NCBI GenBank assembly: GCA_021773835.1
Contig: JAJFJQ010000051.1
Span: 62,001 to 126,000, forward strand
Length of the DNA stretch: 64,000 nucleotides
Direction of reading: 5' to 3'
Origin: Gammaproteobacteria bacterium
GTDB taxonomy: Bacteria > Pseudomonadota > Gammaproteobacteria > Ga0077536
The stretch's first letter is position 1. Each line of letters begins with the position of its first letter. The notes beneath the pieces were generated by a model. That model saw only the letters and a program-made list of their open reading frames with translations. It made no database searches and had not been told where the DNA came from. This document shows, in pieces, positions 6,207 through 32,399 of this stretch. A program made the translations under genes and the position numbers.

Positions 6207-7223
6207 ATGGCTAACTCTGATCTTCTTTCACAAGACGAAATTGATGCGCTGTTGTCCGGCGTTGATGAAGGTGATGTCGATACTGAATCGGATGAGCCCA
6301 CCGACCCGGACGCCATAAATACATATGACCTGGCAAGTCAGGACCGGATCGTCCGCGGGCGCATGCCAACCTTGGAGATGATTAACGAACGATTCGCTAG
6401 GAATTTCCGCATCAATGTATTCAACATTTTGCGTCTCTCCCCGGTCGTCTCCGTCGAAGGTATCCAGGTACTCAAATTCGGAGAGTACGTTCACACGCTG
6501 TTGATGCCTTCAAACATGAACATCATCAAGATCCCACCGCTACGCGGATCTGCGCTGGTGGTGTTCAACCCAAAGCTCGTTTTTTCAATGGTCGACTGCT
6601 TTTTTGGTGGTGACGGTCGTTTCCATACAAAAATTGAAGGACGCGATTTTACTAGCACGGAGATGCGTATCGTGCGGAAGGTCTTGGACGTGGCATTTGC
6701 AGGTTTGCAGGAAGCGTGGGAGCCGGTGCTGCCGATCGAATTCCAATTCATGAATTCTGAGATCAATCCACAGTTCGCCAACATCGTTACCCCGAGCGAG
6801 GTTGTCATCGTGTCTACCTTTCACGTTGACGTTGAAGCTGGCGCCGGGAATTTACAGATTGTAATGCCCTACTCGATGGTCGAGCCGATCCGTGACTTGC
6901 TCGACGCAGGTATTCAGAGCGACGTCACGGAAAAGGACACGCGTTGGAGCAGCCGATTGCAAGAAGAGATAAAAAGCGCACGAGTTAATTTGAACTCAAC
7001 GCTGAGCACAACGGAGTTGACCTTGCGTGAAATCGTCGAGATGAAACCTGGTGATGTGATTGGAATCGAAATGCCGGAAACCGTGCTGGCCAAGGTCAAG
7101 CAGGTACCCGTGTTTCGTGGCAAGTTCGGCGTCTCGCGTGGTAACTGCGCGCTAAAGGTTGTGGAGACGCTAAATCATGGCGCAGCCAATGGGACCGAAA
7201 ATGAATTGGGATTACCGCAATGA
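6207..7223 (+). CDS. fliM: Flagellar motor switch protein FliM
   Basis: Middle C-ring subunit that binds phosphorylated CheY. The N-terminus carries the CheY-docking peptide LLSQDEIDALLSGVD; the middle CheC-like domain follows, with the GGDGRFHTK region, and the C-terminal SpoA domain ends the protein. 338 residues, normal length. Its stop overlaps the fliN start as ATGA. The docking peptide matters here because a similar motif occurs twice in the STAS protein at 27789. Confidence 0.96.
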   Translation: MANSDLLSQDEIDALLSGVDEGDVDTESDEPTDPDAINTYDLASQDRIVRGRMPTLEMINERFARNFRINVFNILRLSPVVSVEGIQVLKFGEYVHTLLMPSNMNIIKIPPLRGSALVVFNPKLVFSMVDCFFGGDGRFHTKIEGRDFTSTEMRIVRKVLDVAFAGLQEAWEPVLPIEFQFMNSEINPQFANIVTPSEVVIVSTFHVDVEAGAGNLQIVMPYSMVEPIRDLLDAGIQSDVTEKDTRWSSRLQEEIKSARVNLNSTLSTTELTLREIVEMKPGDVIGIEMPETVLAKVKQVPVFRGKFGVSRGNCALKVVETLNHGAANGTENELGLPQ

Positions 7224-16188: not shown

Positions 16189-16578
16189 GTGGATAAAAGT
16201 ATGAAGATTCTAGTCGTTGATGACTTTTCAACGATGCGCCGTATTGTTAAGAATCTACTGACGGAATTGGGTTTTACAAACATAGAAGAGGCAGATGATG
16301 GATTGACCGCACTGCCGATGTTGAAGACCGGAAAGTTCGACTTTCTCGTAACTGATTGGAATATGCCGGGGATGGAAGGAATTGATCTGTTGAAGGCTGT
16401 GAGAGCGGAACCGAGTATCGCTAACCTGCCGGCTCTGATGGTGACGGCCGAGGCACGTCGCGAACAAATTGTGCTCGCCGCTGAAGCGGGTGTGAACGGG
16501 TATGTGGTTAAACCTTTCACGGCTGCGACCTTGCAAGAAAAAATCGATAAAATTTTCGCGCGCCTAAAAGCGGCGTGA
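16189..16578 (+). CDS. cheY: Chemotaxis response regulator CheY
   Basis: Single-domain receiver that, when phosphorylated by CheA, binds FliM and changes motor direction. Acidic pair in [11 protein letters not shown], phospho-Asp in VTDWNMPGM, switch Thr in MVTAEA, and Lys in YVVKPF are all present, and the sequence is close to enteric CheY. GTG 16189 is chosen for its strong GGAGGAAGGT ribosome-binding site. 129 residues. A second very similar CheY is at 32010. Confidence 0.94.
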
Positions 16579-16627
16579 TGTTGATCGTGACTAGTAACCC
16601 CGACCTCAACCCAAATTGTGCAGGGAT

Positions 16628-17434
16628 ATGCCGGTGAAGGTGTGGACTGTGGCCGCGCAAAAAGGCGGTGTTGGTAAGACGACAACCGTCGTCAGTATCG
16701 CGGGATCGTTGGCGCGCCGCGGTTACAAGGTTTTATTGGTCGATCTCGATCCACACGGTTCACTGACAGGTTACTTCGGGTTCAACTGCGATGTTGTCGA
16801 GCCCAATGCCTATGGCTTGTTCGAGGCCGCAGCCAATCACGAGTATCGCGATGTACGCAGCTGCATCGTCGAGACCCAGGAGACGCCGGGCATTTCACTA
16901 GTACCGAGTTCAACCGCATTAGTGTCCTTAGATAGGCGCTATGGTCAACAGCGTGGCATGGGCGGCGTGCTGAAAAAATGTCTGGACGAGCTGGATCACG
17001 AATATGACTATTGTCTGATCGATTGCCCACCAATGCTGGGGATCCTAGTCGTAAATGCACTCGTCGCCTGTAGTTCGCTGATCGTGCCGGTACAAACAGA
17101 GTTTATGGCCGTGAGTTCCGTGGAACGCCTGCTGCGGACATTGGAGATGATCCAGCGGTCGTCCGGACTGGCTGTGCCCTATACCGTGGTCCCGACGATG
17201 TTCGACCGTCGCACGCGTGCCTCGCACGACAGCCTTGCGCGATTACGCGCCCGGCCCGATATCCAGCAATGGCCCGATGTCATTCCTGTTGATACCCAGT
17301 TTCGCGAAGCGAGTCGGATCGGGTTACCACTGACGTGTTGGCAGCCACGTGCTCGCGGCAGCCGCGCCTATGAAGAACTTCTAGATCACCTGAAAGGCTT
17401 TGATCAACCACAGGCATTGTTACGGGCAGGATGA
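16628..17434 (+). CDS. ParA/Soj-type ATPase of the chemotaxis cluster
   Basis: ParA-family ATPase; homologues in polar chemotaxis operons (ParC in Vibrio) position signalling arrays at the pole. Deviant Walker A QKGGVGKTTT, VDLDPHGSLTGYFG, and IDCPPMLGILVVNAL are seen. About 268 residues from ATG 16628; the frame also allows TTG 16616. A ParP-type CheW partner is not seen in the window. The arraying role is inferred from position next to cheY. Confidence 0.85.
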   Translation: MPVKVWTVAAQKGGVGKTTTVVSIAGSLARRGYKVLLVDLDPHGSLTGYFGFNCDVVEPNAYGLFEAAANHEYRDVRSCIVETQETPGISLVPSSTALVSLDRRYGQQRGMGGVLKKCLDELDHEYDYCLIDCPPMLGILVVNALVACSSLIVPVQTEFMAVSSVERLLRTLEMIQRSSGLAVPYTVVPTMFDRRTRASHDSLARLRARPDIQQWPDVIPVDTQFREASRIGLPLTCWQPRARGSRAYEELLDHLKGFDQPQALLRAG

Positions 17435-18695: not shown

Positions 18696-19415
18696 TTGTC
18701 GATCACGAATGCAACCGTCGCCGACGGTTTAGACAGGACATTTCAAACAGCTATGCCGAACGGGGACAACGAATCTCAGCAATTGGATGGTGCAGCTGAC
18801 TCGACCGTTTTAGGTGAGCTACGTGAAATATCTGAAAAATTGCACTCCACTTTGCATCATCAGCCGCTTGATCCACAGGTTATTGCGGCAGCGCACGGCA
18901 AACTACCTGAGGCTATGAATGGCCTCGACTATGTGATCGAAAAAACAAACGAAGCAGCGAACAGAACCTTGGACCTCGTGGAAGATTCGATGCCGATTGC
19001 GGCGACACTTGGCACTCGGGCCAGGTCCTTGGGCGAGCAATGGGTGCGGTTTCGATGCCGCGAACTGGATTACGAGCAATTCAAGTCATTTTCGGATGGC
19101 CTAATGACGTTCCTGAATGACTTTGAAGTAAGCAACAAGAAACTCAGCGCCAATCTATCGGAAATCTTGCTAGCGCAGGAGTTCCAAGATTTAACCGGGC
19201 AGGTCATTCGTCGCGTGATGAACGACGTGAAATCGGTCGACGAGCAACTTTGTGCGATGGCAGGAGTAAAACCCAGTACGCCGACCGACACCGTCCCAGC
19301 CGAACACGGATCATCGTCTGCCGCGCGCGGACCAGTAGTTGAGAGCAGTCCTAATGAAACTTGCGCAGTTGACCAAACTGATGTTGACGACATTCTTTCG
19401 GAGTTGGATCTTTGA
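18696..19415 (+). CDS. cheZ: CheY-P phosphatase CheZ
   Basis: Dephosphorylates CheY-P to end the signal. The four-helix hairpin shows LPEAMNGLDYVIEKTNEAANR and the catalytic helix AQEFQDLTGQVI, with Asp165 and Gln169 matching the enteric catalytic pair DxxxQ. The C-terminal tail VDDILSELDL is the CheY-binding amphipathic peptide. 239 residues from TTG 18696; an in-frame ATG at 18750 with AGGA upstream is an equally possible start, since the N-terminus is not conserved. Confidence 0.93.
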   Translation: MSITNATVADGLDRTFQTAMPNGDNESQQLDGAADSTVLGELREISEKLHSTLHHQPLDPQVIAAAHGKLPEAMNGLDYVIEKTNEAANRTLDLVEDSMPIAATLGTRARSLGEQWVRFRCRELDYEQFKSFSDGLMTFLNDFEVSNKKLSANLSEILLAQEFQDLTGQVIRRVMNDVKSVDEQLCAMAGVKPSTPTDTVPAEHGSSSAARGPVVESSPNETCAVDQTDVDDILSELDL

Positions 19416-19476: not shown

Positions 19477-19839
19477 ATGGCGAAAATCTTAGCGGTGGAT
19501 GATTCCACATCGATGTTGCAGATGGTGTCTTTCATCTTACAGGAAGGGGGACACGAGGTCGTCGATGCATGTGACGGTGTTGAAGCTTTGGACCGTGCGC
19601 GCAACGAGCCGGTCGATCTGGTGCTAACGGACGTCAATATGCCGAATATGGACGGTATTACCTTGGTTAAAGAATTGCGCGCTTTGGCGACCTACAAGTT
19701 CATTCCAATGCTGATGTTAACGACCGAATCAAGCACAGAGAAAAAACAAGAAGGTAAGGCCGCCGGTGCGACCGGATGGATAGTAAAACCGTTTGAACCC
19801 GATCGTCTGTTGGCCACTGTCAACAAGGTACTCGGGTAA
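19477..19839 (+). CDS. CheY-like single-domain response regulator beside cheA
   Basis: 120-residue receiver with AVDDSTSM, phospho-Asp in LTDVNMPNMDG, Thr in LTTESS and WIVKPF. It differs clearly from the CheY at 16189 and resembles the CheY types paired with F-class CheA operons. It lies between cheZ and cheA, so it may be a phosphate sink or the output of this CheA; which one cannot be told from sequence. Confidence 0.9.
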   Translation: MAKILAVDDSTSMLQMVSFILQEGGHEVVDACDGVEALDRARNEPVDLVLTDVNMPNMDGITLVKELRALATYKFIPMLMLTTESSTEKKQEGKAAGATGWIVKPFEPDRLLATVNKVLG

Positions 19840-19857: not shown

Positions 19858-21957
19858 ATGGCGCTAGATTTAGACGAATTCCACGGCATGTTCTTCGAAG
19901 AAAGTTTCGAGGCACTCGATGATATGGAAACTGGGCTGGTCAACCTTGATGTAAATGCTGATCCGGTTGACCTCGACGCGATTAATACGATTTTCCGTGG
20001 GGCGCACTCTGTAAAGGGCGGCGCCGGTATGTTTGGATTCACTGAGGTGGCCGGATTCACTCACGTGATGGAGACATTGCTCGACAAAATCCGAGACGGC
20101 GCGATGCGCCTAAGCCAACCGACCGTCGATGCGTTTTTACAAGCGGTAGATTGTTTGCGTGAAATGCTGCGGGCGACCCAAGCCGGTGAGACAGTCATGT
20201 CCGCACATGTTGAGCAAACCCAACGCAGCCTCGAATCGATCTTGGCGGCGGGCGATAGCGAGCCTGTAAAAGCTGCCGAGGTCGACGCGCCCGTGTCTGC
20301 AAGTACGGAATCGCCAGCGGACGGCGATCCTCAGGTGCAATTAGATACGCAGCGTTGGTCTATTAGTTTCAAGCCGCACGCAGAAATGCTCGCGACCGCC
20401 AACGATCCCTTGATTATTCTCCAAGAGCTGTCATTGCTCGGCGATTTGTCAGTGACGGTCGATATGGCGTCCATTCCGGGCCTGGGCGAGCTGGAATCCG
20501 AGAAAATTTACCTTGGTTGGCAGATGGAGCTGTCGACTAACGTAACTCGCGATGAAATCGTAACCGTATTCGAGTGGGTCGAAGGTGAGTGTGATCTTGA
20601 AATTAAAGAACTCAGCGCCGGTCGCGACCAAGGTGCTAAGTCCAGCAGCGAATACTCGGATATCGAGGTTGCCAAAACCGCTGACCCAGCACCACCAGCT
20701 GGCGCCGATAAGCAAAAGCCGGCGGTTCCCGCACGCGCAACAAATTCCGATGCCGGATCGATCAGAGTAGGCATCGATAAAGTCGATAGCGTTATAAATT
20801 TAGTTGGCGAACTCGTTATCACGCAATCAATGTTAAGTCGTTTTGGTGAGGACGAGGGCTTTCTCGATTTCGAAGGCTTGCGGCAAGGTTTAGTTCAGCT
20901 AGACAGGAATACCCGTGAGCTCCAACAGACGGTGATGCAAATTCGAATGCTGCCGATCAGTTTCTCCTTCAATCGATTTCCACGATTGGTACGAGACATC
21001 AGTGGTCAATTAAATAAAAAGATAGATCTGGTGATCGAAGGCGATCAAACCGAACTCGATAAGACTGTTCTTGAAAAAATCGGCGATCCTCTAATGCACC
21101 TTGTGCGGAACTCGCTCGATCACGGGATCGAAATGCCAGAAGACCGTCTTGCGGCAGGCAAGAGCGAAGTTGGTGTCTTGAAATTAAACGCCTATCACTC
21201 GGGAGGCAATATCGTAATTGAAGTCGGCGATGATGGACAGGGACTACCTAGAGCCAAACTGCTGCAGAAAGCCAGGGACCGCGGCCTTGTTGGCGCTAAT
21301 GAAGAACTATCGAATGATGAAATACATCACCTCATTTTTCATCCTGGATTCTCCACTGCTACAAACGTCAGCGAGATTTCCGGTCGCGGCGTTGGCATGG
21401 ATGTTGTGAGGCGAAACATTCAAGACCTTGGAGGGCATGTGGAATTGCAATCGGAAGAAGGTGCGGGGTGCACGTTCCGGATCCGGTTACCTCTAACGCT
21501 CGCCATCCTGGATGGTCAACTGCTACGAGTTGGAAAAGAGATCTTTGTAATTTCTCTGGTCTCGATAGTCGAATCCCTACAAGTTACGCTCGACAACGTA
21601 AATGCGATCGCGGGTCGGGCCGAACTCTTTAGGCTGCGCGATGAATACATCCCGATCGTACGGATGAACGAGTTATTTGGCATCGAGTCCGACTGCACCG
21701 AATTGGAAAAAGGCTTACTGGTGGTCGTGGAGTCTGATGGGATCCAAGTGGGATTGTTCATCGACGACCTTCTCGGTCAGCAACAGGTCGTGATCAAGAG
21801 TCTCGAAACGAATTTCCGCCAAACCGACGGGCTGTCAGGCGCGACGATTCTTGGTGACGGAACCGTTGCCCTGATTATTGATGTTCCGGGACTCATCAAT
21901 AAATGCTTGGCTAACGCGTTGGACAATGGTCGTTCGTTGGCAAGGACGGCTGCGTAG
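19858..21957 (+). CDS. cheA: Chemotaxis histidine kinase CheA
   Basis: Receptor-controlled kinase that phosphorylates CheY and CheB. Domains in order: HPt with phospho-His50 (FRGAHSVKGGAGMFGF), a P2-like regulatory domain at about 160-250 (WSISFKPHAEML start), a dimerisation helix pair (SVINLVGELVITQSML), the ATPase with N-box LVRNSLDHGIE and G-boxes VGDDGQGL and SGRGVGMDVV, and a C-terminal CheW-like domain. 699 residues, complete. Confidence 0.96.
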   Translation: MALDLDEFHGMFFEESFEALDDMETGLVNLDVNADPVDLDAINTIFRGAHSVKGGAGMFGFTEVAGFTHVMETLLDKIRDGAMRLSQPTVDAFLQAVDCLREMLRATQAGETVMSAHVEQTQRSLESILAAGDSEPVKAAEVDAPVSASTESPADGDPQVQLDTQRWSISFKPHAEMLATANDPLIILQELSLLGDLSVTVDMASIPGLGELESEKIYLGWQMELSTNVTRDEIVTVFEWVEGECDLEIKELSAGRDQGAKSSSEYSDIEVAKTADPAPPAGADKQKPAVPARATNSDAGSIRVGIDKVDSVINLVGELVITQSMLSRFGEDEGFLDFEGLRQGLVQLDRNTRELQQTVMQIRMLPISFSFNRFPRLVRDISGQLNKKIDLVIEGDQTELDKTVLEKIGDPLMHLVRNSLDHGIEMPEDRLAAGKSEVGVLKLNAYHSGGNIVIEVGDDGQGLPRAKLLQKARDRGLVGANEELSNDEIHHLIFHPGFSTATNVSEISGRGVGMDVVRRNIQDLGGHVELQSEEGAGCTFRIRLPLTLAILDGQLLRVGKEIFVISLVSIVESLQVTLDNVNAIAGRAELFRLRDEYIPIVRMNELFGIESDCTELEKGLLVVVESDGIQVGLFIDDLLGQQQVVIKSLETNFRQTDGLSGATILGDGTVALIIDVPGLINKCLANALDNGRSLARTAA

Positions 21958-22547: not shown

Positions 22548-22636
22548 TGAGGATTACCACGCTGCCAACCTTCGTAGTCCGATAACGGATACTAATATTT
22601 CAGTGAGCAAAAGATTAGAAAAATTTGGATGTAGAG

Positions 22637-25600
22637 ATGAACCCATTCAATAGATTAGTAATCTTGAAATTCAGCCAAAAACTTATGCTTGCCATGGTCA
22701 TGGCCGGGTTAGTTCCAGCACTCATTACGGGAATGGTGGTAAATAAGATTGCCGGAGAGTCAATTACCGATCGCGTAGTCGCCCAGATGAGTTCTCTGAC
22801 CGTCGCTAAGAAAACACAGGTCGAGAGCTACTTCGGCACGATTCGAGATCAGGTTGTAACGCTATCCCAAAATAAGATGACCATCGACGCCGCTAAGGAA
22901 TTGGCGCCAGCGTTCAACGATGACACGCTCGACGCGGATACTGCGGCCCACATGCGATCAGCGATGGCTAAGTTTTATCAACATGAGTTCGCTAACGAAT
23001 TTAAAACTAGAAACAATGGTACGAGTGTTGAGATTCATTCGCTCGTTCCAAAATCGGCCGCTTCTATATCGGCGCAATACCGATATATTGCTGAAAACCC
23101 AAATCCATTAGGGGAGAAGCATCAACTCGACAATGCGCAGACAGGCTCACGTTACGACGAATTACATCGCATCTACCATCCGATCCTTCGAAGTTATCTC
23201 GAAAAGTTTGGGTATTACGATATCTTTATCCTCGATCCACGTACTGGGCACATCATTTATTCTGTATTTAAAGAGCTCGACTACGGTACGAGCTTGATCG
23301 ATGGTCCGTACGCGGATACGAATTTCGGCAAAGCCTTTCGCGAGGCCGTCAAACTTACCGGTGAAAATGATTTCGTCATTGCCGATTACGAACCCTATCG
23401 ACCGTCCTACGACGCGCCAGCATCATTTATTGCATCGCCAATTCTAGACTCAGGGGTTGTGGTTGGCGTTTTGATTTTTCAAATGCCCGTCGATCACATC
23501 AACCAAATCATGCACGAACGAGCCGGGTTGGGAGAATCCGGTGAAACTTATCTTGTTGGGTCGGATTTTTTGATGCGATCTCAGTCAGACCAAACCGAGG
23601 AGCCAACCCTGTTACGCCGCGAAGTCCGAACTGCCAGCACTGAGGCGATATTTAACGGTGGTTCGGGAACGGGTCAATATGCAAACTATCGCGGGACACA
23701 AGTCTTATCCTCCTATGTGCCACTTGCGCTTCCCGGGGGCCTTGAGTGGGGCGTGGTCGGTGAGATTAACGTCGATGAAGCGCTCAGTTCCTTGAGCAAT
23801 CTGCAACACGTCATCATTATTGTTGCGCTGGCTGCCGCGATTTTATGTTTCGCGTTTTCGTGGTGGTTTTCTCGCAGGGTTCTTGCGCAGCTTGGTGCCG
23901 ATCCGAAACGCTTATTAGACGTGGTGTCGGCCATTGCTGAGGGCGACCTTGAGATGGATCTAGAAACTGGCAAACGTCCAGTAGGCGTATTCGCCGGCAT
24001 GCAAACAATGCAGAAAAACCTACGCTCGCAGATAGAGTCGGATCGAAAAATTTCAGCAGAAAATAGTCGCGTGCGCCAAGCGCTTGATAAGGTCAACAGC
24101 AACGTGATGATGGCGGATGTCGATTTCAACATCATCTATATGAATGATTCCGTCCGAGACATGTTTGCTAACGCAGAGTCGGATCTGCGCAAGGACCTAC
24201 CGAACTTCGAGGCGAAGACATTGTTAGGTACCAATATGGATGTATTCCATCAGAATCCAGCGCATCAGCGAAGTCTGGTGGAAGGGCTGACCTCGACGCA
24301 TGAGGCCGAGTTGAAGATCGGTGGCAGGACGTTCGCGTTTGCGGCGAACCCTGTTGTGGGAGACAACGGCGATCGGCTAGGCACCGTTGTTGAGTGGGTG
24401 GATCGGACGGCTGAAGTGGCCATAGAGGTTGAAGTAGACAGTATCGTCGCGTCGGCGAAGAGCGGTGATCTCAGCAAACGAATAAGTCTGGACGGCAAAA
24501 GCGGGTTCTTTGAATCCCTGAGTACCGGGGTCAATGATTTGGTTGATGTCGCCGATCGCGTCATCGGTGATACCGTTAGGGTGCTCGGTGCATTGGCTGA
24601 GGGACATTTGACTGAAACTATCGAAGCGGATTACGACGGTATCTTTGGGTCCTTGAAAGAGAACGCGAACCATACCGTAGCGAAACTCACTGAAGTTGTT
24701 AATTCGATCCAGGCGACGGCTAATACCGTCTCAACGGGCGCCACGGAGCTCTCGCAAGGAAACGCGAATCTATCGCAACGCACCGAAGAGCAAGCCTCAA
24801 GTCTGGAAGAGACCGCCTCCAGCATGGAGGAGATGACGAGTACGACGACGCAAAACGCAGATAACGCGCGACAGGCCAACCAGCTCGCAACACAGGCTCG
24901 CGATCTAGCCGAGTCCGGTGGCGAAGTCGTCAATCACGCGGTGAAGGCGATGAATGATATCAATGAGTCGAGTAAGAAGATCTCGGACATTATCGGTGTC
25001 ATTGATGAGATTGCGTTTCAGACCAACCTACTTGCCTTGAATGCCTCGGTCGAAGCGGCGCGTGCCGGTGAACAAGGTCGGGGCTTCGCTGTCGTTGCAA
25101 GCGAGGTGCGGAACCTTGCTGGTCGAAGTGCGACCGCGGCGAAAGAGATAAAGGAATTGATCCAGGACAGCGGTACGAAGGTCGACGAGGGGTCGCGTTT
25201 GGTCAACGAGTCTGGTGAGACGTTAGAAGAGATCGTTGGTGCTGTTAAGAAAGTCACCGATATCGTTGCTGAGATAGCGGCGTCGAGTCAAGAGCAGAGC
25301 TCTGGGATTGAGCAGGTCAATAAGGCCGTCATGCAGATGGATGAGATGACTCAGCAGAATGCGGCCTTGGTCGAGCAGGCGGCAGCGGCGAGTAAGTCTA
25401 TCAGCGATCAATCGTCCAAGCTCGATGACATGATGGCTTTCTTTACGACGCAGTCCGATGCGGGTATGCCAGCGACAAATTCAGAAACAACCGTACCAAC
25501 CGAGCGCCGTAGTCAAGATCGCCCTTGGAGTGGTGATATCGAAAGTGGCGGGACAGAGACGCCAACTACACGAGAATCCGAGCCTGAGATGCCTCAAAAA

Positions 25601-25648
25601 CGTTCAGCGGTTGGTGGATCAACCGATAGTGAATGGGAGGAGTTTTGA
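22637..25648 (+). CDS. Transmembrane methyl-accepting chemotaxis receptor with Cache-like sensor and PAS
   Basis: About 1003 residues. A first membrane helix (about 16-36) and a second ([20 protein letters not shown]) flank a periplasmic region of about 350 residues with Cache-like features ([19 protein letters not shown]). Then come HAMP, a cytosolic PAS ([15 protein letters not shown]), a HAMP-like linker and the MCP signalling hairpin with tip [20 protein letters not shown]. It ends SEWEEF, a WxxF tether for CheR/CheB. ATG 22637 is preferred over TTG 22625. The ligand is unknown. Confidence 0.93.
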
Positions 25649-25762: not shown

Positions 25763-27682
25763 ATGAGTAATGTCCACAAGAAATCACTTTGGTCATCTGT
25801 GATCCCTAGTGTTGGTAAAAAAATTCGATCTTTGGAAGCCGAATTGATCACCAATCGAAGCTATATCGATGCGATCGGAAAATCCCAGGCTGTAATCGAG
25901 TTTAACTTAGACGGCACGATCGTAACGGCAAATGAAAACTTCCTCGCGGCTGTTGGGTACAGTTTGGAAGAGATCCAAGGGCAGCATCATTCAATGTTCG
26001 TCGAAACGAGCCACCGCTCCAGCGCAGAATACAAAGAATTTTGGGCTAGCCTTAACCGCGGTGAGTTTCAGGCGGCGGAGTACAAACGGATTGGCAAAGG
26101 CGGCAAGGAAATTTGGATCCAGGCGTCGTATAACCCAATATTCGACGAACAGGGCAAAGCGATCAAGATCGTGAAATACGCCACCGACGTCTCCGCACAA
26201 AAACTGCAGGCGGCGGACTTTGCCGGCCAAATAGCGGCAATTAGTAAATCGCAAGCTGTGATCGAGTTTAACATGGATGGCAAGATCATCACGGCAAACG
26301 ATAATTTTCTTTCTGTTCTTGGTTATCGTTTGGAGGAGATCCAAGGACAACACCATTCGATGTTTGTTCTACCAGACTATCGTGAAAGCACTGAGTATAA
26401 GGAGTTTTGGTCCAGTTTAAATCGTGGCGAATACCAGTCCGCAGAATACAAGCGGATCGGGAAAGGCGGAAAGGAGATTTGGATACAAGCGTCCTATAAC
26501 CCGATCTTCGACCTGAATGGTAAGGCCTTTAAGGTGGTGAAGTACGCGACTGACGTTTCTGATCAGAAATCACTGGTCATGGCTCAGGAAAGAATTGTAG
26601 CCGACACGATCAGAGTATTTTCTGCATTAGCCGAGGGCAATTTGACGCAAAAAATTGAGGCGGCCTACGATGGCGACTTTGGTCGGCTTAGGGACGACGC
26701 GAATCGAACCGTTGCTAAGTTGACGGAAGTCGTTGGCTCAATCCAAAGTACCGCAAACGCAGTCTCTACGGGTGCATCAGAATTATCGCAAGGAAACGCA
26801 AACCTATCGCAAAGGACCGAAGAGCAAGCCTCTAGTCTAGAAGAGACGGCCTCCAGTATGGAGGAGATGACGAGTACAACCACTCAAAATGCGGACAACG
26901 CGCGGCAGGCCAATCAACTTGCAATCCAGGCTCGGGAACAAGCGGAATCTGGCGGGTCGGTGGTTAATGAGGCGGTTACCGCGATGAATGCAATCAACGA
27001 GTCGAGTAAGAAGATTTTCGACATCATCGGCGTTATCGACGAAATAGCCTTCCAGACGAACCTTTTGGCGCTCAATGCGTCAGTCGAAGCGGCGCGCGCC
27101 GGCGAACAAGGCCGCGGGTTTGCCGTCGTTGCAAGTGAAGTTAGAAATCTCGCAGGTCGCAGTGCTACGGCGGCCAAAGAAATCAAAGATCTCATCCAAG
27201 ACAGCGTCGTCAAAGTAGAAGACGGTTCGCGCCTGGTCAATGAGTCCGGTAGCACACTCGACGAGATTGTAAACGCCGTGAAAAAAGTCACCGACATCGT
27301 TGCCGAAATTGCAGCCGCGAGCCAGGAGCAAAGCGCCGGTATTGAGCAGGTAAACAAAGCGGTCACCCAAATGGATGAGATGACTCAGCAAAACGCGGCC
27401 CTTGTAGAAGAGGCCGCAGCGGCGAGCGCATCGATGAGTGATCAGTCCGCAAGGCTTAATCAAATGATGGCCTTTTTCACGACGAACGAAACTCACGATG
27501 AGGCAAGTCGACCGAGCCAAGTGACAGAAGCGACGCACGGTAGTGACCGACGGGGAATGGATCGTCCGTGGGGTAGTGAGGCGTCGAGTCGAAGCATCCC
27601 AGACGCAGTGGCGTTTGCTGATCCCCCTTCGAGTCGCGTTGTAGCCGGAGGTTCAAACGACAGCGAGTGGGAAGAATTCTAA
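25763..27682 (+). CDS. Soluble methyl-accepting receptor with tandem duplicated PAS domains
   Basis: 639 residues with no membrane segment, so a cytoplasmic receptor. Two PAS domains (about 41-147 and 163-269) are nearly identical to each other, both with SQAVIEFN, EEIQGQHHSMFV and RIGKGGKEIWIQASYNPIFD. This PAS type often binds haem or flavin in redox receptors; the cofactor is not determinable here. The HAMP-like linker and signalling domain match the preceding receptor closely, and the same SEWEEF tether ends it. GGAGTGTTCG precedes the ATG. Confidence 0.93.
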   Translation: MSNVHKKSLWSSVIPSVGKKIRSLEAELITNRSYIDAIGKSQAVIEFNLDGTIVTANENFLAAVGYSLEEIQGQHHSMFVETSHRSSAEYKEFWASLNRGEFQAAEYKRIGKGGKEIWIQASYNPIFDEQGKAIKIVKYATDVSAQKLQAADFAGQIAAISKSQAVIEFNMDGKIITANDNFLSVLGYRLEEIQGQHHSMFVLPDYRESTEYKEFWSSLNRGEYQSAEYKRIGKGGKEIWIQASYNPIFDLNGKAFKVVKYATDVSDQKSLVMAQERIVADTIRVFSALAEGNLTQKIEAAYDGDFGRLRDDANRTVAKLTEVVGSIQSTANAVSTGASELSQGNANLSQRTEEQASSLEETASSMEEMTSTTTQNADNARQANQLAIQAREQAESGGSVVNEAVTAMNAINESSKKIFDIIGVIDEIAFQTNLLALNASVEAARAGEQGRGFAVVASEVRNLAGRSATAAKEIKDLIQDSVVKVEDGSRLVNESGSTLDEIVNAVKKVTDIVAEIAAASQEQSAGIEQVNKAVTQMDEMTQQNAALVEEAAAASASMSDQSARLNQMMAFFTTNETHDEASRPSQVTEATHGSDRRGMDRPWGSEASSRSIPDAVAFADPPSSRVVAGGSNDSEWEEF

Positions 27683-27788: not shown

Positions 27789-28385
27789 ATGACGGAGAAC
27801 AAGACAGTGACAGAGAAGCCTGGCGACGACGAGATCACCGAGGAAGAATTCGATGCATTATTGGACGCGATTGACGCGCGCAAGGCGCCGCTCGATCAGG
27901 CAAGTCCAATGATCAGCGAGGCGACCGCAGCAGCCGGCGGCAATGACGAGATCACCGAGGAAGAATTCGACGCGGTTCTCGATCGTTTGGACGCGGAACG
28001 AAAAGCATCAAACGGCGGCGGGCATGAGCACGATGGTGTAACAAGCGCAGTCGTAGACGAATACCTCACCGATCTTTGTGATTCCTCGGGAGATATCGAC
28101 GTGCTCGAACTTTCGCCGAACATCGGGATTGCAGAGGCCGCAAACCTTCACTCGCAACTCATCGAGTTATCAAACTCAACGAAAGCGCTGCGCATTGAGG
28201 CGGCCCAGGTTGAAGCTATAGACACCGCAGTACTGCAGCTTTTTTGTGTTTTCATAAAAGAATTGTCCAAAAACGATCGTGAGGTGGTTTGGTCGGATCC
28301 ATCTGCGGCACTCCTGCGCAACGCTAGTGTGTTGGGATTGACGACACATCTCAATCTGCCTGAGATTGACTCGAAGGCAGCTTAG
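27789..28385 (+). CDS. STAS-domain chemotaxis protein with two FliM-like CheY-docking motifs
   Basis: 198 residues. The acidic N-terminal part carries two copies of an amphipathic motif, DEITEEEFDALLDAIDA (from residue 14) and DEITEEEFDAVLDRLDA (from residue 53), each followed by a flexible linker. They resemble the FliM CheY-binding peptide DEIDALLSGVD. The C-terminal half (about 95-195) is a STAS fold: VLELSPNIGIAEAANLHSQL, then ALRIEAAQVEAIDTAVLQLF. The motif-docking idea is inference; no function is established. It lies between two receptors and cheR, in the same direction. Confidence 0.75.
   Translation: MTENKTVTEKPGDDEITEEEFDALLDAIDARKAPLDQASPMISEATAAAGGNDEITEEEFDAVLDRLDAERKASNGGGHEHDGVTSAVVDEYLTDLCDSSGDIDVLELSPNIGIAEAANLHSQLIELSNSTKALRIEAAQVEAIDTAVLQLFCVFIKELSKNDREVVWSDPSAALLRNASVLGLTTHLNLPEIDSKAA
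27828..27970 (+). repeat. 26-bp direct repeat encoding the docking motif
   Basis: Two identical 26-base copies, 27828-27853 and 27945-27970, 117 bases (39 codons) apart and in frame. Flanking bases also match partly. The identity at DNA level suggests a recent internal duplication or strong conservation of the motif. Confidence 0.9.
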
Positions 28386-28389
28386 CATC

Positions 28390-28980
28390 ATGTCCAATTT
28401 AAGATCCCCCGCTATTGAGTCTGCGGAGCTTAGCGGTGAAGCGACCAGTGCGCCCGCGTCTTCGATTAAATCTGACTATCTTGCGGAAGTGATTTCGTTG
28501 TCGGCGGCGCAGCTCGAGGCCGCAATGAAATTCGCAACACACGAAGAGGCCAAATGCACCGACTCGTTGCTTCGCGGCATCGCCCACATCAATGACGCGC
28601 GGAGGGAACTAAACAAAAGCTTCGTCGACGCTGATGGTGTTGATAGATCTATCTTATCGAAGTTAGACGGAACGCTAGGGCACGTTTCCGAAGATGCGAA
28701 CGCAGCGATCACTGCGCTTCAATACGTCGATGCATTGTCGCAGCGTCTCTCGCATATTTTGTTCGAGCTAAATCAGGTCGCGAAGTTTGCCGACTCAGGT
28801 CGAAATCTGGATTCAATTGATGACTGGGCGGAACTGTTAAATAGGATCCGCACCATGTATTCAATACACGAAGAACGTGAAGTATTTGATGCGGCAATGG
28901 CGGACGCCGCAATTGGGGCGCTAATCGGCGCGAGGGACATCGATTCGGATTTTACCGATAACTCGGTGGACATTTTCTAA
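28390..28980 (+). CDS. Helical chemotaxis-cluster protein with CheZ-like DxxxQ motif
   Basis: 196 residues, almost all helix, with no membrane segment. It is not similar to CheZ overall, but the helix ALQYVDALSQRLSHIL holds Asp114 and Gln118 with the spacing and setting of the CheZ catalytic pair (DLTGQ). The preceding helix is rich in Asp/Ala. It starts four bases after the STAS gene. A second CheY-P phosphatase is possible but is inference from one motif and position; a structural or scaffolding role is the alternative. Confidence 0.6.
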   Translation: MSNLRSPAIESAELSGEATSAPASSIKSDYLAEVISLSAAQLEAAMKFATHEEAKCTDSLLRGIAHINDARRELNKSFVDADGVDRSILSKLDGTLGHVSEDANAAITALQYVDALSQRLSHILFELNQVAKFADSGRNLDSIDDWAELLNRIRTMYSIHEEREVFDAAMADAAIGALIGARDIDSDFTDNSVDIF

Positions 28981-29059
28981 TGTGTCGTCAGTTCTTGAGC
29001 GCTGGAACGCGAGGGTTAGTAACCTCCAATCAATTGGACCTTTACCAAGGACCAGGGGC

Positions 29060-29893
29060 ATGAGTCAGCGTGAGTACGCTTTTACTGACGCGGATTTCAA
29101 ACGTCTACGGCACCTGGTGTCGGAGCACACTGGGATCAGCCTATCAGAGGCGAAACGGGACTTGGTCTACGGACGTTTGTCGAAACGGCTTCGTGCACAT
29201 GGACTCAATAGTTTTTCGGCTTATACCGACTACCTTACGAGCAATCCGGATACCGAGTTTGAAGAATTTACCAATGCAATCACAACCAATTTAACTTCGT
29301 TTTTTAGGGAATCGCATCATTTTGACTACCTCCGCGAGAGTGTCTTACCAGAACTCAAGAACCGCAATCAGGGGAATCGCCGGATCAGGATCTGGTCGGC
29401 GGGATGTTCCACCGGAGAAGAGCCATATTCAATTGCAATAAGCCTCATGGAGTCGTTTCCGGAACTCGACAACTGGGACGTGAGAATTTTGGCCACCGAT
29501 CTGGATACAAATTGCCTTCAGCACGCAGCGGCTGGAATCTATGGGCTAGAGAGGGTTGAGACGATGTCGAAGGATCGCTTGCGTCGCTGGTTTCGCAAAG
29601 GCCGTGGAGAATTGGCGGACAAGGTTCAAGTCGACAATAAATTGAAGGAGCTAATCACCTTCAAGCAACTTAACCTGATGGGTGAGTGGCCAATGCGTGG
29701 CCCGTTTGACATTATTTTTTGCCGCAACGTTGTTATTTACTTTGACAAGCCCACCCAACGGGTGTTGTTCGACCGCTACGCAAAGCTTGCATCTGATGAC
29801 GCGCATTTGTTTCTCGGGCATTCGGAGAGCCTGTTTAATGTCACCGAAAAATTTAAGTTAATAGCAAAAACGGTTTACCGACGGTCAACGTGA
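29060..29893 (+). CDS. cheR: Chemotaxis receptor methyltransferase CheR
   Basis: S-adenosylmethionine-dependent methyltransferase that methylates receptor glutamates. N-terminal helical domain, then the SAM site RIWSAGCSTGEEPYSIAI and the FDIIFCRNVVIYFD block. ATG 29060 with AGGGGC upstream gives 277 residues, the usual length; a GTG at 28982 would add 26 unusual residues. It probably docks on the WEEF tails of the two receptors upstream. Confidence 0.95.
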   Translation: MSQREYAFTDADFKRLRHLVSEHTGISLSEAKRDLVYGRLSKRLRAHGLNSFSAYTDYLTSNPDTEFEEFTNAITTNLTSFFRESHHFDYLRESVLPELKNRNQGNRRIRIWSAGCSTGEEPYSIAISLMESFPELDNWDVRILATDLDTNCLQHAAAGIYGLERVETMSKDRLRRWFRKGRGELADKVQVDNKLKELITFKQLNLMGEWPMRGPFDIIFCRNVVIYFDKPTQRVLFDRYAKLASDDAHLFLGHSESLFNVTEKFKLIAKTVYRRST

Positions 29894-30549
29894 GCGCAGA
29901 GCTTCAAAAAAACAAGGAGTCGTGTGGTGATCAACCGCCAGCTATTGTTGGGTTTGAACACATTAATCGCTACTGGGATCCACAGAATAGCGTGTTCGCG
30001 GCGAAACTATTGCCCGGTGAGTACTACGTCAGTACAACCGGTGAAATGATCACCACGGTGCTGGGGTCCTGTATTTCCGCGTGCATTCGCGACAAGGTAT
30101 TTGGGATAGGCGGGATGAACCATTTTATGCTGCCTGACCACGCTGAGAACCAAAACGGATCATGGGAAAACACCAAGGTGAACGCAGCGACGCGTTATGG
30201 CAATTATGCAATGGAGCATTTAATCAACGACATTCTTAAGCAGGGTGGCCGACGCGACAATCTTGAAGTGAAACTATTCGGCGGCGGTCAGGTGCTGCGT
30301 ATCGCAACTAACATCGGTGGAAAGAATGCTCAATTCGCAGAATCCTACGTGCGTATGGAGGGCTTAACGCTCGCGGCGATCGATGTCGAAGGACCCTATC
30401 CGCGGAAAGTAAATTATTTTCCGGCCACCGGTAGGGTTCGCGTTAAAAAATTGGAACCGCTGCACAACGATACTGTTGTGAGTCGAGAAGAGAAGTATTT
30501 GCATAGCCTCGTTGAGACGCCGGTCGAGACTGAAATCGATTTGTTTTGA
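29890..30549 (+). CDS. cheD: Chemoreceptor glutamine deamidase CheD
   Basis: Deamidates receptor glutamines. Catalytic Cys in TTVLGSCISACI and His in GGMNHFMLP are present, along with FGGGQVL. 219 residues, slightly longer than typical because of a 25-residue N-terminal and a C-terminal extension. GTG start overlaps the cheR stop (GTGA). Confidence 0.93.
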   Translation: MSAELQKNKESCGDQPPAIVGFEHINRYWDPQNSVFAAKLLPGEYYVSTTGEMITTVLGSCISACIRDKVFGIGGMNHFMLPDHAENQNGSWENTKVNAATRYGNYAMEHLINDILKQGGRRDNLEVKLFGGGQVLRIATNIGGKNAQFAESYVRMEGLTLAAIDVEGPYPRKVNYFPATGRVRVKKLEPLHNDTVVSREEKYLHSLVETPVETEIDLF

Positions 30550-30602
30550 ATACAGCCCGAACGTAATGCGCTTTACATCGGTATTTGACTGGACGAAATA
30601 AG

Positions 30603-31703
30603 ATGACAGATAAAATTCGTGTACTTATCGTAGATGACTCTGCCTTGGTGCGCCAAACGTTGACGAAAATTCTGGATGCAGACAAAGACATCGAAGTTGT
30701 TGGCGCTGCGCCCGATCCACTGGTCGCACGTGAAAAGATAAAAAAATTGAATCCAGACGTCCTTACCTTAGACGTTGAAATGCCCAAGATGGATGGTGTT
30801 ACCTTTCTGCGTAATCTCATGCGTTTACGGCCGATGCCGGTGGTGATGGTATCTTCGTTAACTGAGAAAGGCGCGGAGATTACCCTAGAGGCGCTTGAAG
30901 TCGGGGCGGTCGATTTTGTTAGCAAACCGAAAATAGATCTCGCCAATACGCTCGAAGATTACGCAGAAGAAGTCACCGAAAAGGTTAAAGCCGCCGCGGG
31001 TGCGAAACTTTCGAAGCGAGGCGCCGATGCACGTATGATTGCACGCGGATCTCCGAATCCGCAGAAGATGGAGATCACAGAAAAGCACTCCGCCGATGTC
31101 GTGTTAGAGAAGCGTGCCGTACCTCAGCACTTTAAGACGACGGATAGAATCATCGCGATCGGTGCATCGACTGGCGGCACGGAGGCATTGAAGGTAGTCC
31201 TGGAGGCGATGCCGGCCGATTGCCCCGGGATCGTTATCTCGCAGCATATTCCACCCGTGTTCAGCACCTCATTTGCAAATCGCATGGATACGATTTGTGC
31301 AATGACGGTATTTGAAGCAGTCGATGGCCAACAGATATTACCTGGGCACGTATACATTGCTCCTGGCGATGCGCATTTGATGTTGGTTCGTGACGGTGCG
31401 CGTTATCGATGTAAGCTCAGTGACGCCCCGCCGGTCAATCGTCATCGACCATCGGTTGACGTGCTGTTCAGATCAGTCGCGCAGAACGCGGGTAAAAACG
31501 CGGTCGGCGCAATCTTGACCGGGATGGGGGACGACGGCGCCCGAGGATTAAAGGAAATGCTCGAAGCCGGCGCAAAAACCATGGCTCAAGACGAGAAGAC
31601 TAGTGTCGTTTGGGGTATGCCAGGCGAGGCGGTCCATATTGGCGCGACAGAACTAACATTACCGCTCGATGAGATTGCGCCGCGTATTTTGCAAATGATC
31701 TAA
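30603..31703 (+). CDS. cheB: Chemotaxis methylesterase CheB
   Basis: Receiver-controlled methylesterase/deamidase. Receiver phospho-Asp57 in [10 protein letters not shown]; the esterase domain has nucleophile Ser in [10 protein letters not shown], His in SQHIPPVFS and Asp in [13 protein letters not shown] 30603 gives 366 residues; the TTG at 30585 is less likely. The 54-base gap to cheD suggests the same operon. Confidence 0.95.
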
Positions 31704-32009
31704 CGCGCCTAGCTTGCCCACATTTAGGCAGTCCCGCTCTCCTGCCCTTGGGCATCGCGCTCCAATTTCAATCAAATCTGGATGGCCGGCGAAACGAACT
31801 GTGCGCCGACGGCAGTGATCGACTTCCGTATCTAGAATGACGCTAAGTTATTGTAATAATTGCACAATTAACTTAAATCTACGGGGTGCCAGAGCCGCAC
31901 TCAAGATTTCCAAAAATCGGTCGTTAAGCTAATACGGATACAGCTGCGCCATATAGCCTAGTGGTACCAGGCTGTGCGGCGTTAGGCCACTATGAAATTG
32001 GAGGCGTAC
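31704..32009. other. Gene-free stretch between cheB and cheY2
   Basis: Holds no credible ORF. A GCCTA/TAGGC hairpin of five base pairs lies just after cheB (near 31708-31730) and a near-palindrome AGCCTAGTGGTACCAGGCT lies near 31957. An AT-rich tract (31845-31880) could hold a promoter, but no sigma54 or sigma28 match is clear. Confidence 0.5.
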
Positions 32010-32399
32010 ATGAGACCGGATATCAATATTCTCGTCGTAGACGATTTTTCGATGATGCGCAGGATAATCCGAAAACTGCTTCGTGAGCTCGGTTACATGA
32101 ATGTCGCAGAGGCAGAAGATGGGAATACTGCGCTGCCGATGCTCGAATCAGGTGATTTCGATTTCTTGATAACCGATTGGGATATGCCTGGGATGGCAGG
32201 GATCGAACTGCTTCGTGCTGTACGTGACGACCCGGAGCTATCGGATCTGCCCGTTTTAATGGTCACCTCTGAGTCGCGTCGCGAATACGTACTTGCCGCC
32301 GAGGCGGCGGGCGTAGACGGCTATATGGTGAAACCATTTACGTTGGATGCATTGAGAGACCACGTTGACCGCGTATTCGGATCGCTTGCAGTCGCCTAG
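32010..32399 (+). CDS. cheY: Second CheY-type response regulator
   Basis: 129-residue receiver very like the CheY at 16189: VVDDFSMMRRIIRKLLRELG, TDWDMPGMAGIELLRAV, MVTSES and YMVKPF. ATG 32010 is chosen for the TTGGAGGCG site six bases upstream; ATG 31992 is in frame but lacks one. Two near-identical CheYs in one locus suggest a recent duplication, one perhaps acting as phosphate sink or on a different target. Confidence 0.92.
   Translation: MRPDINILVVDDFSMMRRIIRKLLRELGYMNVAEAEDGNTALPMLESGDFDFLITDWDMPGMAGIELLRAVRDDPELSDLPVLMVTSESRREYVLAAEAAGVDGYMVKPFTLDALRDHVDRVFGSLAVA

Follow-up and report, generated by a model that had tools for sequence, protein, structure and literature searches.

The 198-residue STAS protein encoded at 27,789-28,385 on the forward strand of the 64,000-nucleotide stretch of DNA analysed here (the window) carries, on its acidic N-terminal arm, two copies of a short motif, and by sequence the closest relative of this motif is the repeat that lies between the Hpt and P3 domains of flagellar-locus CheAs, not the N-terminal peptide of FliM. 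The identity of the motif with these CheA linkers, a window CheA that is itself free of the motif, the order of the surrounding genes and the presence of a single CheA in the genome are what we observed, and they form the basis of a tentative proposal, to which we give close to an even chance, that the protein is a CheS-like partner of CheA which offers the FliM-binding CheYs their docking peptides in trans.

The open reading frame starts with ATG and is placed before cheR as in the che clusters of relatives, and its STAS domain (aa 106-184, 28,104-28,340, forward strand) is matched by Pfam STAS_2 with an E-value of 8.9e-10, above the cut-off of the family. A first-pass annotation of the window had described two in-frame copies of DEITEEEFDA(L/V)LD in front of this domain, identical over 26 bases at the DNA level, and the description is exact. 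Copy 1, DEITEEEFDALLD, covers aa 14-26 (27,828-27,866) and copy 2, DEITEEEFDAVLD, covers aa 53-65 (27,945-27,983), both on the forward strand. The identical DNA comprises exactly 26 bases (27,828-27,853 and 27,945-27,970), and overall 39 of 60 bases agree between the copies. Under independent draws by local codon usage the chance that all 8 full codons agree is about 0.002, and it is therefore likely that the two copies arose by a fairly recent duplication. The arm that carries them is probably disordered.

The motif resembles the FliM peptide through a pattern hydrophobic-S/T-x-acid-E-F/I-acid-A-L-L. In the window, fliM lies at 6,207-7,223 (forward strand), and the N-terminus of its product, MANSDLLSQDEIDALLSGVD, contains the CheY-binding peptide LSQDEIDALL at 6,225-6,254; the EIDALL peptide of FliM is described as binding CheY-P (PMC9126983). 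When LSQDEIDALL was scored by BLOSUM62 against the 10-residue windows of the ORFs of the window (20,482 aa), FliM ranked first, the two STAS copies ranked second and fourth with scores of 30 and 27, and the sequence LSQPTVDAFL of CheA ranked third with 28. Among 1,984,300 shuffled windows only 3 and 13 reached the scores of the two STAS copies, and two such sites were seen in none of 20,000 shuffled arms; because shuffled windows reach these scores so seldom, the FliM-like pattern exceeds chance. The difference is that FliM holds a single copy at the N-terminus of a switch protein, whereas the STAS copies have F for I and T for S.

The FliM peptide was also scanned through 11 flagellar loci of relatives (217 proteins, 69,675 windows), with FliM present for 7 of the loci and with the CheAs of L168 and L170 dropped when non-overlapping ORFs were chosen. 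The windows with a score of 26 or above came from FliM (7), CheA linkers (11) and the C-terminus of CheZ (7). Other proteins, 60,361 aa in all, contributed no window at this score, three at 24 or above and seventeen at 20 or above. As FliM, CheA linkers and CheZ tails alone are recovered at the higher cut-off, we judge from sequence that the motif probably acts in CheY docking. The C-terminal tail of CheZ docks on CheY. The CheZ encoded in the window (18,696-19,415, forward strand; Pfam E 1e-48) ends in VDQTDVDDILSELDL and resembles other CheZ tails, so that the first-pass remark on a CheY-type tail nearby was sound. Such tails are acidic, with DDLL, and came up in the same FliM scan; they differ from the STAS copies in their C-terminal position, on a phosphatase. 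Compared with their own shuffles, seven of nine CheA linkers scored better against FliM than at least 998 of 1000 shuffles, and the two others did no better than shuffles (26 and 61 of 1000 reach their score). The likeness to FliM could in part reflect convergence through a helix-capping box.

Searching 58 relatives with the whole STAS protein returned mainly proteins of about 600-780 aa, in which the match lay in the arm and the STAS domain had no share. Genome contigs scanned with six short peptides of the STAS protein added 24 such loci, and the proteins concerned are CheAs. Four of the motif-bearing CheAs (L167, L005, L037 and L168) match the Hpt, H-kinase_dim, HATPase and CheW domains of Pfam and no P2 family. 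Their linkers between Hpt and H-kinase_dim contain one to four copies of a sequence resembling I-T/S-x-x-E-F-D/E-x-L-L-D, and 12 exact matches to the 10-mer ITEEEFDALL are spread over 9 CheAs. A profile of the 20-residue repeat, built from 115 copies in 43 CheAs with the window excluded, was run against the six-frame translation of the window and matched copies 1 and 2 of the STAS protein with 30.7 bits (E 4.3e-9) and 29.0 bits (E 1.5e-8), the next match having an E-value of 1.1. On FliM the profile gave 0.4 bits (E 14); its copies were chosen for a central E-F, a choice to the advantage of copies of this kind and to the disadvantage of FliM. The first-pass comparison with FliM thus pointed in the right direction and was incomplete: sequence scans do rank the copies near FliM, yet the motif, probably a CheY-docking one, belongs to the family of CheA-linker repeats. 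In these flagellar-locus CheAs, which we take to be F6-like from gene order, the motif is mostly present in two to four copies spaced by tens of residues, much as in the STAS protein, with the difference that it stands there in cis between Hpt and P3 and here on a STAS protein. We found no report of a FliM-like motif in CheA linkers in the titles, abstract starts and passages of the open-licence literature. In a search of plasmids the only motif match was a CheA of Aeromonas caviae with 3 copies (L189, 6,479-8,647); the record that carries it, pKAM479_3, is labelled a plasmid but has 4.9 Mb and is thus probably a chromosome. Pfam SHOCT passes its cut-off on the linker repeat of one CheA (L005, aa 210-226 of the ORF; 27.9 vs 27), so that automatic annotation may mislabel the repeat.

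Among the CheAs compared, the distribution of the motif is complementary to that of a domain of 85-100 residues which is present in CheAs of the window type and for which we use the label P2-like. All 16 CheAs beside fliM in relatives have one to four motif copies and none has the P2-like domain; 15 of them were picked by position (on the same contig as fliM and within about 15 kb, among the 58 relatives), and the sixteenth, from G031, is cut by a contig end and known from its arm match alone. In a set of 71 CheA-like ORFs (116 minus repeats), which is biased because many were retrieved through the motif, 43 have the motif, 24 have the P2-like domain, none has both and 4 have neither, three of these four being truncated where the retrieved DNA ends. 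The mutual exclusion concerns this 85-100 residue domain, Pfam P2 being absent from both types of CheA: none of 7 CheAs scanned, of both types and including that of the window, gave a Pfam P2 or CheY-binding match. A majority of CheAs have no P2, and the part that leads from Hpt to the dimerization domain is described for them as extended and unstructured (PMC10782961; Berry et al., 2023).

The CheA of the window (19,858-21,957, forward strand) is without the motif and is the sole CheA found in the genome, whose two CheW-domain proteins are CheW and that same CheA. Its P2-like domain (aa 162-256, 20,341-20,625, forward strand) scores 118.6 bits against its own profile, a match by construction as the domain is the first sequence of the profile. 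The domain is modelled as a ferredoxin-like fold with a pLDDT of 85.5, and the P2 of Thermotoga maritima CheA (1u0s) aligns to the model with a Z of 7.4 and an rmsd of 2.7 over 74 residues, tied with unrelated ferredoxin-like folds. Foldseek likewise returned general ferredoxin-like matches, and comparison of the domain with the PDB by sequence gave no useful match.

Among STAS proteins the motif appears to be confined to the window. It was found in 1 of 51 STAS rows, that of the window, and in 0 of the 50 others, a count that covers ORFs of up to 400 aa and in which one gene is repeated at least three times; the ORFs were read from stop to stop, so that arm lengths are upper bounds. No second STAS protein with a motif arm turned up in the 58 relatives, in the genome-contig scan or in the order (36 genomes). 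A further search gave 69 STAS matches, 39 of them without a locus, of which 6 were read elsewhere and 33 lie outside the count. The plasmid search gave a single STAS match, whose gene adjoins cheY and cheA in Pseudoalteromonas piscicida. The arm is missing from the STAS homologues that occupy the corresponding position in the operon. Homologues lacking the motif were to speak against the first-pass reading, and the STAS homologues do lack it, but the motif is conserved elsewhere, in CheA. Being known from one genome, the arrangement of motif and STAS domain could be a local oddity. The arms of STAS proteins vary, from none to DPLAWL, Lys/Arg-rich or, in the window, the motif; an N-terminal DPLAW(L/M) peptide is seen on five other STAS proteins (L062, L065, L083, L084 and L085), with a stretch that looks globin-like by eye between peptide and STAS in L084.

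The window reads fliM ... flhG-fliA-cheY_a-parC-HDOD-cheZ and continues from cheZ with cheY_b-cheA-cheW-mcp-mcp-STAS-X-cheR-cheD-cheB-cheY_c-motA-motB-DUF2802. The cheR, cheD and cheB genes of the same operon span 28,982-31,703 (forward strand), with Pfam matches for cheD and cheB; relatives have homologues of the three genes arranged likewise. In G012, G016, G036 and similar relatives there are two separate che systems, one flagellar and one alternative. The flagellar system reads flhG-fliA-cheY_a-cheZ-cheA(motif)-[cheB]-motA-motB-[parC]-[parP]-cheW-DUF2802 (L166, L167, L168 and others), and the alternative cluster reads cheY_b-cheA(P2-like)-cheW-[mcp]-STAS-cheR-cheD-cheB (L149, L150, L151, L153, L155 and L159; also L152, L154 and L160), the STAS gene preceding cheY_b in L158, L161 and L190. 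Taken together, these gene orders and the single CheA indicate that in the window the alternative cluster occupies the place that the motif-bearing CheA has in the flagellar locus of relatives. Three genomes of the same genus give no comparison, since none of them has a CheA match; a STAS match was found in none of the three either, and FliM in one, in a genome that is 57% complete and on a 15.7 kb contig without a matched che gene. Both MCPs of the window (22,625-25,648 and 25,763-27,682) end in DSEWEEF, an ending that we take to resemble the CheR/CheB tether pentapeptide.

Three single-domain CheYs are encoded in the window, as noted in the first pass: cheY_a at 16,189-16,578, cheY_b at 19,477-19,839 and cheY_c at 31,992-32,399, all on the forward strand. 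In Escherichia coli the CheY residues given as contacts to FliM are A90, K91, K92, I95, A99, Y106, V108, K119 and K122 (PMC3774744), and these were mapped by hand on a CheY alignment. CheY_a, of flagellar type, keeps them, with A, R, R, I, A, Y, V, K and K (two K as R); CheY_c, also of flagellar type, keeps them partly, with S, R, R, V, E, Y, V, H and R; and in CheY_b, with S, S, T, K, K, W, V, T and K, they are mostly lost. The nearest PDB entries of CheY_b are 4h60/4hnr, presumably Vibrio cholerae CheY4, a protein reported as a non-binder of FliM. Because the contact residues are kept, partly kept and mostly lost in this order, the likely ligand of the motif would be CheY_a, with CheY_c possible and CheY_b unlikely.

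Five bases past the stop codon of the STAS gene begins gene X (28,390-28,980, forward strand), which may encode a CheT-like phosphatase and is at present a candidate on account of its D-x-x-x-Q sequence (within ALQYVDALSQR), its being a neighbour of STAS genes and its model. D-x-x-x-Q is given as the motif of CheT (PMC12654446). Relatives of X were sought with a pattern built on the ALQYVDALSQR motif, which demands D and Q/N, and this gave 7 rows besides that of the window, 5 of which adjoin STAS genes in other genomes; the rows in L037 and L178 proved to be unrelated proteins and were dropped. In an alignment of six sequences Q111, D114, Q118 and L127 are invariant, the D and Q/N partly by construction of the pattern, so that independent support comes from the place beside STAS, from L127 and in part from Q111. 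The model of X is a helical hairpin, with a modest pLDDT of 63.5; hhalign against CheZ gave a probability of 0.4%, and CheZ was not among the listed fold-search matches of the model. X ends in NSVDIF (28,960-28,977) and CheD in TEIDLF (30,529-30,546), and V/I-E/D-L-F stands near or at the C-terminus of 4 of 5 X relatives; the tail shared by X and CheD may bind a common partner.

We suggest that the STAS protein would be a CheS-like partner of the CheA of its operon, a kinase that has its own P2-like domain, and that it would have gained an acidic arm with the two docking peptides that flagellar-locus CheAs carry instead of that domain. As the alternative cluster inside the flagellar locus has the only CheA of the genome, the flagellar CheYs must depend on this CheA. 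STAS would bind CheA in the region of P1/P2, and the arm would use its two peptides to keep CheY_a, and perhaps CheY_c, beside the kinase by way of the alpha4-beta5-alpha5 face, the face used by FliM, so that CheY docking would be supplied to the kinase in trans; the arm would replace, and descend from, a lost CheA linker. A contact of STAS with CheA near P2 is supported by an ORF of G037 (L018, 1,456-3,198) in which STAS (10-92) and the P2-like domain of a CheA (104-200) follow each other directly in one fused protein; neither Pfam Hpt nor HATPase was matched in this fusion. A precedent is CheS of Sinorhizobium meliloti, a STAS protein that is described in a review as forming complexes with CheA and affecting the binding of CheY by CheA (PMC12654446, citing Dogra 2012). 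The two have in common a STAS domain encoded in a che operon and, with X as the candidate here, a CheT-like gene in the same cluster, and differ in that CheS, compared here by its description in the review alone (PMC12654446), is a single-domain protein without a docking arm.

The first-pass annotation had proposed that the protein could sequester CheY-P or present it to the STAS module. The docking part of this idea agrees with the sequence scans, and over the sequestering or presenting part we prefer a role as CheA partner, for which S. meliloti CheS sets a precedent among the STAS proteins of che operons. In its fuller form the idea is that a free STAS protein holds CheY-P away from FliM or passes it to X, with no need to bind CheA. 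Two peptides on one arm, the 5 bases between the STAS stop and the start of X, the resemblance of the D-x-x-x-Q of X to CheZ-type phosphatases and the X-like gene adjoining STAS in 5 other genomes all fit such a sink for CheY-P; however, in those 5 genomes the STAS protein is without the motif, so that the pairing of STAS and X is independent of it, and the usual home of the peptide is the kinase and not the phosphatase. We consider this explanation unlikely. The motif might instead correspond to the LID of CheA, which binds ParP for polar placement of the array, and the arm of the STAS protein would then bind ParP. In V. cholerae the LID is described as lying between P2 and P3 of CheA, binding ParP and occurring only in species with ParC/ParP (PMC7534058, PMC5706961). 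A parC-like gene is present in the flagellar locus of the window (16,616-17,434, forward strand), and parC accompanies 5 of 8 motif loci of relatives and 14 of 14 from the genome-contig scan (19 of 22 in total, counting loci examined far enough downstream), which fits the LID and equally a simply conserved gene order. Against it, no parP was found in the genome of the window, which is 98% complete: the best match has an E-value of 0.15 and an internal stop, whereas the same ParP protein search matches two genomes of the same family at 4.3e-12 and 4.3e-9. The absence rests on this search, as PF01584 alone is insensitive and missed the ParP of G012 and G020. Three of the 22 loci (L173, L174 and L179) contain the motif but matched neither parC nor parP, the absence of ParP being weaker for them because the search found the ParP-like gene of G056, from another family, at an E-value of 0.13. 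We regard this explanation as rather improbable; motif and LID, which were compared by description, may nevertheless overlap.

A SHOCT-like or generic helix-capping arm unrelated to CheY is about as improbable. PF09851 does match the STAS protein weakly (E 0.00098, 19.2 bits vs a cut-off of 27), and the one CheA linker mentioned above exceeds the cut-off at 27.9; yet the best stretch in the STAS protein spans 12 of 28 positions, the CheA linker is matched by LLD and the flanking residues with 29-31 bits, and the motif stands between Hpt and P3, which is the place of P2 in other CheAs. Finally, there is only a very slight chance that the protein is an anti-sigma-factor antagonist of the SpoIIAA type, as its TIGR00377 score is 14.5 bits against a cut-off of 53.45, Ala occupies what we presume to be the phosphoserine site of SpoIIAA (IDTAVLQ) and the gene lies in a che operon, even though the protein has a STAS domain and most small STAS-only proteins are said in a review to be anti-sigma antagonists (PMC12654446).

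Returning to docking in trans, it is possible, at somewhat short of even chances, that a modular array of FliM/CheZ-like docking peptides replaces P2 in flagellar-locus CheAs of Gammaproteobacteria and can move between scaffolds, and that it is met here, where another CheA would have taken over the flagellar locus, on a CheS-type STAS protein, which would provide the function of P2 in trans. If the linker repeats dock CheY, they would provide one answer to how kinases without P2 find CheY, and the window would in that case be an example of docking sites passing from a kinase to its partner protein as the flagellum of one che system is taken over by another.
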